Source of the DNA: Ignavibacteria bacterium
Lineage (GTDB): Bacteria > Bacteroidota > Ignavibacteria > Tepidaquicellales > OLB5
Assembly (NCBI GenBank): GCA_014879675.1
Contig: JACSRQ010000102.1
Location: 1-45,146 of the forward strand
DNA length: 45,146 nucleotides
Direction of reading: 5' to 3'
The translations under genes and the position numbers were made by a program. Below the pieces are notes generated by a model that was not told where the DNA came from, did no database searches, and saw only the letters and a program-made list of their open reading frames with translations. This document shows positions 2,951-45,146 of the stretch, in pieces (the first letter of the stretch is position 1; each line of letters begins with the position of its first letter).

Positions 2951-4006
2951 ATGTTTAAACTTAAAATATTCACACTGATCTTAACGGTGGTTATGGCAGT
3001 AACCAGCTGTTCTTTTGTTGATAAGCTGAAAGAAAAAATCAGCTCAAATAAAGAGGAGAAAAAAGAAGTAACAAAAAAGGAACAGACCAAAGAAGTTACC
3101 AAAGGAGCTGATCTGCAGTTCTACAATAAATATATCGAGGTCTCAAACAAGATACAGGATGCAGGCGATAAGGTTTATAAAGATTTCTCCAGCGATATTC
3201 CTTCGGCAGGTTCGTTAACCAAGAGCTCATTTCTTATAGCCGTAACCTTTAAATTTTCGGTTGATAACCTTGAGCGTATCATGAAGGAGTACAACCGCTC
3301 ATACTTTGATGGCGGCGAGCTCTCAAAGCTCAATGCATCGGAAGAAATGAAATCAGAAATTGAAGGTGACTTCAAAAGTCTTTTGAAGGCGCTTGAAAAT
3401 TACCATGCGGTTTCTAAAAAAGTTGCTGATTATTACAGTAAAGGCGAGTATAAAGAAGATCTTTCTAAAGCCAAAGGCTATGAGGATGAAATGAAGACCG
3501 AAAACGAGAAGTATAAATCAGCGTTTGATAAATTTTCCGCAGCAATAAAAAAATACAAACCTGCACGCGAAAAACGCGATCCTAATTCAGTCTCAAATCC
3601 AGATGAACGCGCAGTAATTGTGCTTATGAATTCATACGAAAATACGCTTGATAAGGCTGAAGAATTTTATGAAGCATTTAACGGGGTGCAGTATAACGGT
3701 GATCTCAGCAAAGCAAAAGATAAGTTCAGGGAGTTTGAATCATCGTTCAAGGAAGATAAAAATTCCGTTCTCAGCGCCGAGTTTACCGATAAGACCAAAT
3801 ACATGAAATACAGCTATGAGGATTATTTTGTAAAAATGACAAATATGTTCCTCGATGCAGGCACTAAGTTCTTTGATAAAGCGCCTTCGGCAAAGGATGA
3901 GCGCGAGTTTAACCGGTTATATGATGATGTGGTGAATAACTATAACTACATGATAACAGCGTATAATACCAATATCAATGTTGTAAATATGTTTAAAGTG
4001 TATTAG
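2951..4006 (+). CDS. DUF3829-family lipoprotein
   Basis: A 351-residue exported lipoprotein. Residues 1-20 are a lipoprotein signal (hydrophobic core, AVTSC, Cys20 as the lipidation site). A Lys/Glu-rich low-complexity linker follows (~25-50) and then a long helical domain with several 'YNKYIEVSNK' and 'YENTLDKAEEFYEAFN' type helices, the pattern of DUF3829 (YiiG-like). The role of the family is unknown. GGAG lies upstream of the ATG. A TAAATTTG at 2864-2871 could be its -7 element. It appears to be a single-gene unit ending just before the octamer array that starts at 4007. Confidence 0.75.
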   Translation: MFKLKIFTLILTVVMAVTSCSFVDKLKEKISSNKEEKKEVTKKEQTKEVTKGADLQFYNKYIEVSNKIQDAGDKVYKDFSSDIPSAGSLTKSSFLIAVTFKFSVDNLERIMKEYNRSYFDGGELSKLNASEEMKSEIEGDFKSLLKALENYHAVSKKVADYYSKGEYKEDLSKAKGYEDEMKTENEKYKSAFDKFSAAIKKYKPAREKRDPNSVSNPDERAVIVLMNSYENTLDKAEEFYEAFNGVQYNGDLSKAKDKFREFESSFKEDKNSVLSAEFTDKTKYMKYSYEDYFVKMTNMFLDAGTKFFDKAPSAKDEREFNRLYDDVVNNYNYMITAYNTNINVVNMFKVY

Positions 4007-4063
4007 TTGAGTAGTAAAGTAGGTGAGTGGTTGAGTTGGGGAGTAGGTGAGTAGGAATAGTAG
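4007..4063 (+). repeat. Left octamer array flanking the S23/IVP gene
   Basis: Imperfect tandem repeats of TGAGTAGG-like octamers start one base after the DUF3829 stop codon. Read on the other strand they are CCTACTCA, CCTACTCC, CCAACTCA, ACCACTCA, CCTACTTT. They are inverted relative to the array at 4562-4709. AGTAGGTGAGTAGG at 4042-4055 is the exact reverse complement of 4695-4708. Confidence 0.8.
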
Positions 4064-4122
4064 ATAAAGTTTTAAACTGAATACAAATGTTTAAGTGTTT
4101 TCAAACATGAAGTAAAAGAGGC

Positions 4123-4503
4123 TTAATCTTCAGTTTTTCGCTTTTTCAAATATGCGATATAGCCATTCATTTTGGCTATTAAAACGTCAATTTTATCGTT
4201 GAACATATTACATGATTGTTCATTTATGTAGTTTTCGTCATAAGCTGTAATAAAGTGATCAATGAGTTCGTAAAGAGAGCCGCGGGAAGTCCTGCAGAAT
4301 TGTATATTTTCCTGATAATGATACCTCCCGTAGCCCTCTGCGATATTTGCTGTAACAGATCTTGAAGCTCTTATCATTTGATCGGAGAGCCTGTACTTTT
4401 CTATTGGAGGAAATCCCTTAACCAATGCGGATATTGCAATTTTTAGCTCTCTTCCTTCTTTCCAAACTTCAAGGGTTTCAAAACCCGATTTCCTCTTTTC
4501 CAT
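4123..4503 (-). CDS. S23/IVP-type four-helix-bundle protein
   Basis: About 126 residues. Seen: FETLEVWKEGRELKIAI, KYRLSDQMIRASRSVTANIAEGYGR and SLYELIDHFITAYDENYI, the signature of the four-helix-bundle family first seen as proteins encoded by intervening sequences of 23S rRNA genes (S23/IVP), distantly like the Avd protein of diversity-generating retroelements. The biochemical role is unknown. I prefer the ATG at 4503 because family members begin a few residues before the FE.LEVW motif; a TTG at 4524 would add seven residues. It is a lone gene, not inside rRNA, between two inverted octamer arrays (4007-4063 and 4562-4709), which suggests a small self-contained element. Confidence 0.85.
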   Translation of the reverse strand: MEKRKSGFETLEVWKEGRELKIAISALVKGFPPIEKYRLSDQMIRASRSVTANIAEGYGRYHYQENIQFCRTSRGSLYELIDHFITAYDENYINEQSCNMFNDKIDVLIAKMNGYIAYLKKRKTED

Positions 4504-4561
4504 TCTCCATAAATCTATTCTCAATGAAATATTTTTAGAATCTTAACATTTACTCCTTATT

Positions 4562-4709
4562 TTCCAACTCACAAACTCCACATGGTACCTACTCACCCAC
4601 TTATCCTACTTACCTACTTACCTACTTATCCCACTCACCTACTTAACCTACTCACTTACTTGCCTAATTGCCTAATCACCTACTCACCAATTCACCTACT
4701 CACCTACTG
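4562..4709 (+). repeat. Right octamer array flanking the S23/IVP gene
   Basis: About 15 tandem units of consensus CCTACTYA, mostly 8 nt with a few 7-9 nt units, and variants such as CCCACTTA, CCTAATTG and CCAATTCA. It lies in the promoter-side flank of the S23/IVP gene. A 63-residue frame through it (Leu/Thr/Tyr/Pro repeats) is just translated repeat. With the left array it forms inverted arms around the gene. Confidence 0.85.
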
Positions 4710-4891: not shown

Positions 4892-5671
4892 TTACTTCGG
4901 GAGTCTAACGGACACTCCGCCGCCAACGAAGAAATCGGGTGATCCTTTAGATATACCTAAACCAAATGCGGCATCAACCTGAACATTTTTTAATACCAGG
5001 TAAGTTAACCCCGCATCAAAACGATGGTCAGGTGAAAATTTCTGAGGCATAAAACCATACAGCTCAACAAATCCAGAAAGTTTGTTAACCAGCGCTGCAC
5101 CAAGCGCTATTGTATATAGTCCGGTTGCTCCCCGCGACCCTGCTCCAAACTCTCCCCCAAGATTGTAAGAGAGTGAAAACCGTTTTGTCAGCGAGTGTGT
5201 CATCGCAAAACGAAACTCCGTTCCTATGTAATCGGATTGAAATGCGCTGTTATCTTTAAAAGGAACAGTGATACTCAGCAGCATTGCCGTTTCAGGCATT
5301 GAGCCTTTTTCCGAAAACAGACTTATCTTTGTGCCCGCCATTATCGGACCCAATCCGCTTTCGCTTACCGAGCCCCCGGGAAAAGTTGTTTTGCTGCTTT
5401 GGTGCTCAATACCCGCGCGCAGCTCAACATTTTTAGCTACACCAAAACGCAGCAGCACCGATGGCGCAGAAAGACCGGTCGTCTTGAAATCTTTTTCCGG
5501 TTCGTCATTTTCCGAGGTTACGCCTGCTTCGATCTGGAAGTAACCCTTCTTCATCAGGTAAGGCGATTCACTCTGGTCCGGTCTGTCGGTTGAAATATCT
5601 TCGACCTGTGAAAAAGAATTCTGTGAAATAAAAATTGCGCTGAAGAGAATTAAAACAAGTAAACTTTTCAT
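4892..5671 (-). CDS. Outer-membrane beta-barrel protein (MetA-pathway/transporter-like)
   Basis: A 259-residue exported protein. Residues 1-22 are a Sec signal peptide. The mature start contains STDRPDQSESP...KKGYFQIEAG, the hallmark of the 'MetA-pathway of phenol degradation'/transporter-like beta-barrel family (PF13557). Alternating hydrophobic strands follow to a C-terminal VSVRLPK. The substrate is unknown, and the family name does not establish phenol metabolism. It is a single gene with its own terminator downstream and a double-hairpin repeat (5697-5749) upstream of its ATG. Confidence 0.75.
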   Translation of the reverse strand: MKSLLVLILFSAIFISQNSFSQVEDISTDRPDQSESPYLMKKGYFQIEAGVTSENDEPEKDFKTTGLSAPSVLLRFGVAKNVELRAGIEHQSSKTTFPGGSVSESGLGPIMAGTKISLFSEKGSMPETAMLLSITVPFKDNSAFQSDYIGTEFRFAMTHSLTKRFSLSYNLGGEFGAGSRGATGLYTIALGAALVNKLSGFVELYGFMPQKFSPDHRFDAGLTYLVLKNVQVDAAFGLGISKGSPDFFVGGGVSVRLPK

Positions 5672-11552: not shown

Positions 11553-11595
11553 TTTTTGATTTTTTCACTTTTGACGTTTCACTTTTGATGTTTCA
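11553..11595. repeat. Heptamer tandem array between mntR and the substrate-binding gene
   Basis: Units TTTTTGA, TTTTTTCA (8 nt), CTTTTGA, CGTTTCA, CTTTTGA, TGTTTCA run up to the mntR stop codon. The consensus NNTTTSA matches the register of the TTTCACG array at 17742-17783. It fills most of the 60-bp gap between the two genes. Confidence 0.7.
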
Positions 11596-11600
11596 CGTGA

Positions 11601-17741: not shown

Positions 17742-17783
17742 TTTCATGTTTGACGTTTGACATTTCACGTTTCACGTTTCACG
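17742..17783. repeat. Heptamer tandem array (six units)
   Basis: Six consecutive exact 7-nt units: TTTCATG, TTTGACG, TTTGACA, TTTCACG, TTTCACG, TTTCACG. The array ends 3 bp before the stop codon of the T9SS-sorted protein gene (17787). Confidence 0.85.
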
Positions 17784-17786
17784 TTC

Positions 17787-44914: not shown

Positions 44915-45146
44915 ACTACGGAGAGTTTGATCCTGGCTCAGGACGAACGTTGGCGGCGTGCTTAATACATGCAAGTCAACTGAAGCACCGGTAGTAATAC
45001 TGGTGTGGAGGTGGCGCACGGGTGAGTAACACGTAGGTAATCTGCCTTCAGGTCTGACATAACCCCGAGAAATCGGGGCTAATAGCAGATGATGCAGCGG
45101 CTTGACATCAAGACAGTTGTTAAAGCTTCGGCGCCTGAAGATGAGC
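44915..45146 (+). rRNA. 16S ribosomal RNA, 5' end (partial)
   Basis: AGAGTTTGATCCTGGCTCAG at 44922-44941 is the universal 16S 5' primer site, followed by GACGAACG, GGCGGCGTGCTTAATACATG and GTGAGTAACACGTAGGTAATCTGC. The mature 5' end is placed ~7 nt upstream by comparison with E. coli numbering. The gene runs off the right end of the window; only ~230 of ~1500 nt are present. Confidence 0.97.

Follow-up and report, generated by a model that had tools for sequence, protein, structure and literature searches.

REP elements and their RAYT transposases comprise a coding unit with inverted repeats that are also dispersed without the gene, and STRRs are arrays of 7-nt units lying between genes. The Coxiella IVS, in the part of its description available to us, has a 28-bp terminal stem, is cleaved by RNase III and carries tandem heptamers before the S23p gene (PMC4990558); the heptamer, GACAGAT, lies ahead of the ORF and differs between strains, and the same part of that source gives S23/IVP proteins no known function. 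Excerpts of other reports place S23 genes in rRNA insertions of CPR bacteria (PMC11270868), count 18 of them in cas loci (PMC3936711) and note the resemblance of PF05635 to Avd, a protein of diversity-generating retroelements (PMC10053308). Tandem heptamer repeats of Xanthomonas, Nostoc and Beggiatoaceae have been published without S23, as far as the accessible text goes (PMC4692102, PMC4679880), with 70 and 75 inverted heptamer pairs (GGGAATC) in two xanthomonad genomes (PMC4692102, same proviso), and the terms "S23" and "four helix" are absent from the main texts of both papers. Among the open PMC matches listed, we recognised no paper tying S23 genes to inverted heptamer arrays.

The S23 gene of the window and its two arrays

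The window, a 45,146-nucleotide stretch of DNA from an Ignavibacteria bacterium, carries on its minus strand an S23 (23S rRNA-IVP) four-helix-bundle gene at positions 4123..4503 (PF05635, TIGR02436; ATG at 4503), for which a TTG at 4524 is a possible alternative start, giving 4123-4524. The protein scores 104.4 bits against PF05635 (cut-off 33.8) and 102.8 against TIGR02436 (cut-off 24), and matches one PDB sequence at E <= 0.01, XCC0516 of Xanthomonas (2gsc; E 1.3e-11). On the plus strand, the left arm, made of GTGAGTAG-type octamers (4007..4055; the 3' arm relative to the S23 gene), begins immediately past the TAG stop of the left neighbour gene (2951..4006, plus strand; no Pfam match at E <= 0.001), to which S23 is antisense. 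The right arm, about 15 CCTACTYA units at 4586..4709 on the plus strand, is the 5' arm relative to the gene and reads GGTGAGTA in the S23 sense; the right neighbour gene lies at 4892..5671 on the minus strand (PF13557).

An S23/IVP gene between inverted CCTACTYA arrays, as proposed in the initial annotation, is what profile matches, repeat detection and shuffles agree on. TRF reports 4586-4708 as period 8 with 15.0 copies (score 107) and 4006-4052 as period 24. CCTACTYA occurs 11 times in the window, compared with 1.38 expected and a maximum of 4 in 100 shuffles, and 9 of the 11 occurrences fall inside the two arrays. The 5' flank of S23 and the reverse complement of its 3' flank have 45 8-mers in common (shuffle maximum 21, n = 200); in direct orientation the flanks share 5. 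The 14-nt exact complement given in the annotation is correct, AGTAGGTGAGTAGG (4042-4055) and CCTACTCACCTACT (4695-4708) being exact reverse complements. Its array limits need trimming: the left array, drawn as 4007-4063, starts as drawn but ends near 4055, and the right one, drawn as 4562-4709, does hold about 15 units but is regular from about 4586 only, 4562-4585 being degenerate. A chance origin of the arrays at S23 is ruled out by these window and flank shuffles together with the control genes described below.

The ORF of at least 80 aa within the unit is the PF05635 gene; no further Pfam family was detected there at E <= 0.001, nor a recognisable transposase by Pfam. The window S23 gene is not inside a 23S rRNA gene, the sole Rfam match over the gathering score being the start of a 16S rRNA gene (RF00177) at the window end, 44915-45146, which is consistent with a contig break at the rRNA operon.

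Inverted short-unit arrays across S23 loci

The window's genome (G000, 255 contigs) has six PF05635 matches, one of them below the cut-off. Inverted arrays bracket five of the six genes, each with its own unit (AAGGCAA, CAAGTTA, CAATTAA, CGGATTT and the window octamer), and these five loci beat all 200 shuffles in shared 8-mers of inverted flanks; the sixth match, the one below the cut-off, has no inverted arrays. PF05635 matches are present in 36 of 39 relatives, from which we sampled the genus-level matches (56 of 58, leaving out two at contig edges), the best match from each of 19 family- or order-level genomes and 25 class-level loci, which were not randomly drawn because they are high-scoring. 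Flanks were usable in 96 of the 100 loci; the 5' flank was locally aligned to the reverse-complemented 3' flank, and a score of at least 32 was taken as the threshold. This value was picked after seeing the data; at 36 and 40, 56 and 47 of the 96 loci pass, compared with 4 and 1 of 656 controls.

Inverted flanks at the threshold were found in 71 of 96 S23 loci versus 5 of 656 control genes (ORF calls in G008; 1/129 for small control genes), with 48/54 at genus rank, 15/19 at family and order rank and 8/23 at class rank. The 25 loci below the threshold include 15 of the 23 from the wider class. Other pairings seldom reached 32: direct flanks in 5/96, plain reversal in 1/96 and mismatched partners in 2.9% of 2880 comparisons. 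The own partner flank outscored all 30 mismatched ones in 51 of 96 loci, and a strict shuffle test was passed by 40 of 73 loci in inverted and by 1 of 73 in direct orientation. The inverted-array packaging of S23 genes is thus systematic. The test set beforehand in the annotation, whether homologues are flanked by inverted arrays of their own consensus, came out in its favour at these 71 of 96 loci, and in other phyla too.

In a scan of named genomes, 80 of 589 confirmed S23 loci were taken, 76 with usable flanks. Among the matches listed, the hosts are mainly Bacteroidota and also include Thiobacillus, an Acidobacteria MAG, Planctomycetales and Deltaproteobacteria (labels as given; MAGs can be mixed). 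Inverted flanks reach 32 in 35 of the 76 loci listed and direct flanks in 13; the own partner is best against 30 others in 40 of 76, and the lag-7 autocorrelation of the flanks listed is 0.336, compared with about 0.265 at adjacent lags. Eight S23 loci on cyanobacterial plasmids were read out of 34 matching records: five have inverted arms scoring at least 46, two score 29-30, and L325 has no inverted arms by the flank test. On one of these plasmids S23 lies between cas6 and cas4, with direct flanks stronger than inverted (L324); on a Picosynechococcus plasmid the unit sits between cas10 and a cmr3-family gene (inverted score 29; L327), and one plasmid unit is antisense between ribonucleotide reductase genes. 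Carriage by phages was rejected, since one query of 50,697 phage records returned zero S23 matches.

The arrays share a period more than a sequence. With periods 5 to 12 tried, a period was callable in 101 of 177 S23 loci and was 7 in 81, 8 in 16 and 9 in 4 (shuffled flanks gave 3 calls); flank autocorrelation peaks at lags 7, 14, 21 and 28 in the 96 loci and at lags 7, 14 and 21 in the named-genome loci. The unit sequence varies from site to site and drifts between related species, and switches between unit lengths 7 and 8 need 8 changes on a fast tree (no shuffle control). A fixed protein-to-unit specificity was rejected: L003/L031 (the window-site genes) differ in their octamer from L054, which shares 48% identity with L003, and the wide unit variation at the fad site also contradicts it. 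In 800 kb of G008 we found 11 strict lag-7/8 arrays (6 of lag 7, 5 of lag 8), with 0, 1 and 0 at lags 6, 9 and 10 and none in one shuffled sequence. Of the four S23 genes in this stretch, whose counted surroundings make up <1% of the 800 kb, three account for five of the 11 arrays, and 6 of 11 lie elsewhere; the former count speaks against, and the latter for, an independence of the arrays from S23, which the annotation had named as contrary evidence. In one half of this stretch S23 loci supply the top two inverted blocks, with 35 and 18 shared pairs against a null maximum of 16; the 25 inverted blocks listed for the other half include neither of its two S23 loci.

The S23 gene is under purifying selection: for the closest same-site pairs at nine shared sites, dN/dS is 0.01-0.14 in 13 of 17, the other 4 being saturated. 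The window gene itself shows such selection when compared with its same-site relative. Arms, for their part, on average match best within a locus. At shared sites the mean arm score is 34.7 for own arms versus 23.2 for arms of different loci, with own arms scoring above the median cross score in 65 of 86 cases. Own and cross scores are alike at several genus-level sites; units at the deeper fad and nuo sites vary from locus to locus, but the two arms of one locus mostly agree. Since the fad-site S23s do not form a single clade, the units there may stem from new insertions instead of concerted change; the cob-site S23s, with L194 excluded, form one clade.

Such matching is also what one would expect if S23 were an ordinary host gene alongside which functionless arrays grew by slippage and template switching, given that template switching between inverted repeats would presumably change both arms alike. 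The variable length and sequence of the arms and the conservation of S23 genes at fixed sites fit that account, but the same pattern occurs in just 5 of 656 control genes, strict arrays are almost exclusively of lag 7 or 8, and at empty sites the unit is missing as a whole (see below), all of which make it a rather improbable one.

Occupied, empty and shared junctions

At the junction of substrate-binding and permease genes (bcaa), G010, G002 and G005 have 1 bp between the stop and start codons, which overlap in G011, and there is no array at these four empty sites. The same junction is occupied by arms and S23 in G012, G008, G003, G007 and G009; G004 and G000 have other short sequence there, G006 stops at a contig edge, and of the G001 unit the right end only was read. 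Because the whole unit is absent at empty sites, its limits are set by the arms, which arrive together with the rest of it, and the annotation's notion of a compact element with definable ends is borne out by this comparison. Among 85 co-directional loci with an arm score of at least 30, the search region being bounded near genes, the 5' arm starts no more than 20 nt past the upstream stop in 75 (median 2 nt) and the 3' arm ends no more than 20 nt ahead of the next start in 64 (median 9 nt). S23 is co-directional with both neighbours in 146 of 166 loci, compared with 400 of 704 G008 genes (neighbours being ORF calls), and on account of this co-direction we reject convergent solo arrays posing as an inverted pair. 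In the sense strand, the 5' arm is C-poor (7%), with more G than C in 84 of 102.

The sense bias fits a role at the RNA level. The window unit strand has a predicted fold of -192.2 kcal/mol in which the arms pair (z -5.16, 20 shuffles), and in this fold the complementary termini can form a stem with the S23 ORF in its loop; the long stem envisaged in the annotation is therefore possible. RNA pairing as a selected feature fares worse: arm mismatches split evenly between G-U and A-C under three scorings (72 vs 79; 154 vs 192; 358 vs 388), so that selection for pairing is not visible. Both observations bear on the proposal that the unit is an operon-embedded IVS, with arms selected to pair in the polycistronic transcript and the S23 segment excised by RNase III, the insertion therefore being harmless to the flanking genes. 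Co-orientation with both neighbours, the paired fold and the Coxiella IVS, with its stem, RNase III cleavage and heptamers before S23p (PMC4990558, available part), argue for this proposal; the want of a G-U excess and the antisense position of the window S23 relative to its left neighbour argue against it, and we regard it as unlikely, though a serious contender.

No transposition event was observed: the few candidates examined yielded no near-identical unit at two different sites, and no target-site duplication was evident in the S23 cases examined. L329/L330 were rejected as a recent transposition, having no arms by the flank test and an 80% alignment that spans 3.1 kb and therefore points to a larger duplication; two Calothrix plasmid copies share their neighbouring genes. 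At one site S23 divergence roughly tracks host divergence, so vertical descent with losses is possible. Paired S23 genes were observed in nearby gaps of one gene cluster at L336, L333 and L335; both genes of L336 have a nearly identical unit, which may reflect local hopping, and the second gene of L335 is armless by the test. Separately, at L081, L083, L085 and L315 a palindromic GCACAGACATTCCTGTCTGTGC-like repeat occupies junctions where other species of the genus have S23, and looks like a further inserter of these gaps.

In the genus, the window site was defined by homologues of the left neighbour gene (2951-4006, plus strand). G010 has an S23 gene there with the window octamer but in opposite orientation, the same-site proteins being 80-81% identical at the aa level, and a flip by recombination between the inverted arms would be the simplest reading; the window-site genes L003 and L031 form a clade of their own in the fast tree. 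G002 retains a solo right array without S23, G008 and G011 have short remnants, and by eye there is no array in G001, G003, G004, G005, G009 and G012. Likewise, at the cinA site G003 has a solo arm of the site's unit without S23, remnants are present in G002 and G007, and neither arm nor S23 was found in G005, G010 and G004.

Arrays without the gene are not confined to these sites. Window octamer arrays occur at about 13 further places in G000 without S23 (backward-pattern control, 0), where they are mostly single, often lie just past a stop codon and often have the GTGAGTAG strand in sense, which is the polarity of the S23 5' arm; on contig C24 there is one inverted pair without an S23 gene. 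Across the genus, octamer arrays are present in 7 of 13 genomes, just two of which have the window-site S23, and in G002 they number 15 versus 4 for the backward control, which is not always zero across the genus. None of the 13 G000 solo-array regions holds an S23 remnant, and one adjoins a 65% homologue of an S23-preceding gene, other matches being distant; with a close neighbour homologue at 1 of 13 regions, the idea that these arrays are scars of known S23 sites was rejected. The annotation's reservation about arrays far from any S23 gene thus stands in part, such arrays occurring at about 13 places in G000, mostly singly. The window itself has two solo heptamer-type arrays, of TTTCACG at 17742-17785 and of TTTCACTTTTGACG at 11563-11596, both ending a few bases from the 3' end of a minus-strand ORF and reading GTGAAA in the ORF sense.

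Solo arrays such as that at 17742-17785, the 6 of 11 strict arrays in G008 and those at about 13 places in G000 would also be expected if the arrays were an independent class of intergenic repeat into which S23 and PF13366 genes inserted, as would heptamer arrays published without S23 in the accessible text (PMC4692102, PMC4679880) and a layout common to two unrelated gene families. Insertion into a direct array, however, predicts flanks in the same direction, and of 96 loci 71 are inverted versus 5 direct; nor is there an array at the four empty bcaa-junction sites. We consider this order of events improbable.

The second of these families is PF13366 (PDDEXK_3). In G008, inverted 9-nt arrays flank a PF13366 gene (127.9 bits) at C1 691867-692391 (L140), the inverted block having 13 shared pairs, under the null maximum of 16. 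PF13366 matches are present in 34 of 39 relatives; the set comprises 30 loci returned (L339-L368) plus L140, which was chosen because of its arms, and 30 were usable. Flanks reach at least 32 inverted in 18/30 and direct in 4/30, compared with 4.5% for mismatched partners, and the own partner is best in 10/30. Flank autocorrelation is maximal at lag 9 (0.316 vs about 0.285), with units such as CACAGAG plus two bases; this suggests a 9-nt unit, the period being callable in 3 of 30 loci only. The gene is co-directional with both neighbours at 23 of the 25 loci having both called. Both neighbours are common to PF13366 and S23 loci in three cases, L340 with L007/L014 and L343 and L364 with L072, and therefore different cargo entered the same junctions. 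Arms as a mark of S23 alone are ruled out by the PF13366 loci with inverted flanks; since these genes have inverted arms too, a reading in terms of a class of elements is slightly strengthened.

A compact element and its described relatives

Collectively, these results show that an S23 gene and two inverted arrays of 7-, 8- or 9-nt units behave as one unit of ~0.5-0.7 kb. This unit occupies the space between two genes, mostly reading in the direction of both, and is bounded by its arrays. Despite unit drift, the two arms at a given locus generally remain matched, and PF13366 genes are arranged in the same way, in some cases at gene junctions that they share with S23. We favour, as the probable explanation, a compact element, mobile or formerly mobile, whose termini are inverted tandem arrays. 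S23, which is a pentameric ring in a solved homologue, would be the protein that the element maintains, and would most likely bind the arms via their period and paired shape, not through one sequence. Any movement would depend on enzymes acting in trans, from the host or elsewhere, because known catalytic motifs are absent from S23; the PDDEXK_3 genes, whose family name implies a nuclease-like protein, are one candidate source. Slippage and template switching between the inverted arms may keep the arms identical and could also flip the gene, and decay of a unit would leave a solo arm.

More tentatively, and on balance doubtfully, S23 units could belong to a bacterial class of minimal mobile elements in which recognition of the ends depends on the period and inverted layout of the repeats and not on their sequence. 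S23 (7-8 nt) and PDDEXK_3 (9 nt suggested) would then be alternative cargo competing for the same junctions, the cargo protein would build, bind or move the arrays, and many of the intergenic heptamer arrays published so far, like many S23 genes of CRISPR or retroelement loci, would be such elements or their scars. The family-wide tie to inverted short-unit arrays offers a candidate substrate for the S23 protein, and S23 units are one possible origin of the intergenic heptamer arrays in Xanthomonas, Nostoc and Beggiatoaceae. Those S23 genes that occur in cas loci may be insertions and not defence genes. The units suggest an overlooked kind of compact genetic element and raise the question of how element ends can be defined by period instead of sequence.

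Among described systems, the 23S rRNA IVSs of Leptospira and Coxiella resemble the units reported here in combining an S23p ORF with inverted, stem-forming termini. Unlike them, the present units lie between protein-coding genes, their termini are inverted tandem arrays that are site-specific, and their protein is under purifying selection. REP elements and RAYT transposases are similar in that inverted repeats flank a gene and also occur dispersed without it, but S23 has no Pfam transposase match, and its repeats are site-specific tandem arrays of 7-9-nt units, not one palindrome. STRRs, as intergenic 7-nt arrays, are like the arrays described here. Tandem heptamers are likewise found in the Coxiella IVS (PMC4990558, available part), and the heptamer repeats of Xanthomonas, Nostoc and Beggiatoaceae are, in the accessible text, intergenic 7-nt arrays as well (PMC4692102, PMC4679880). 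Finally, Avd, which resembles PF05635, is described in the available part of its source as a retroelement accessory protein (PMC10053308), whereas the units reported here carry S23 alone.
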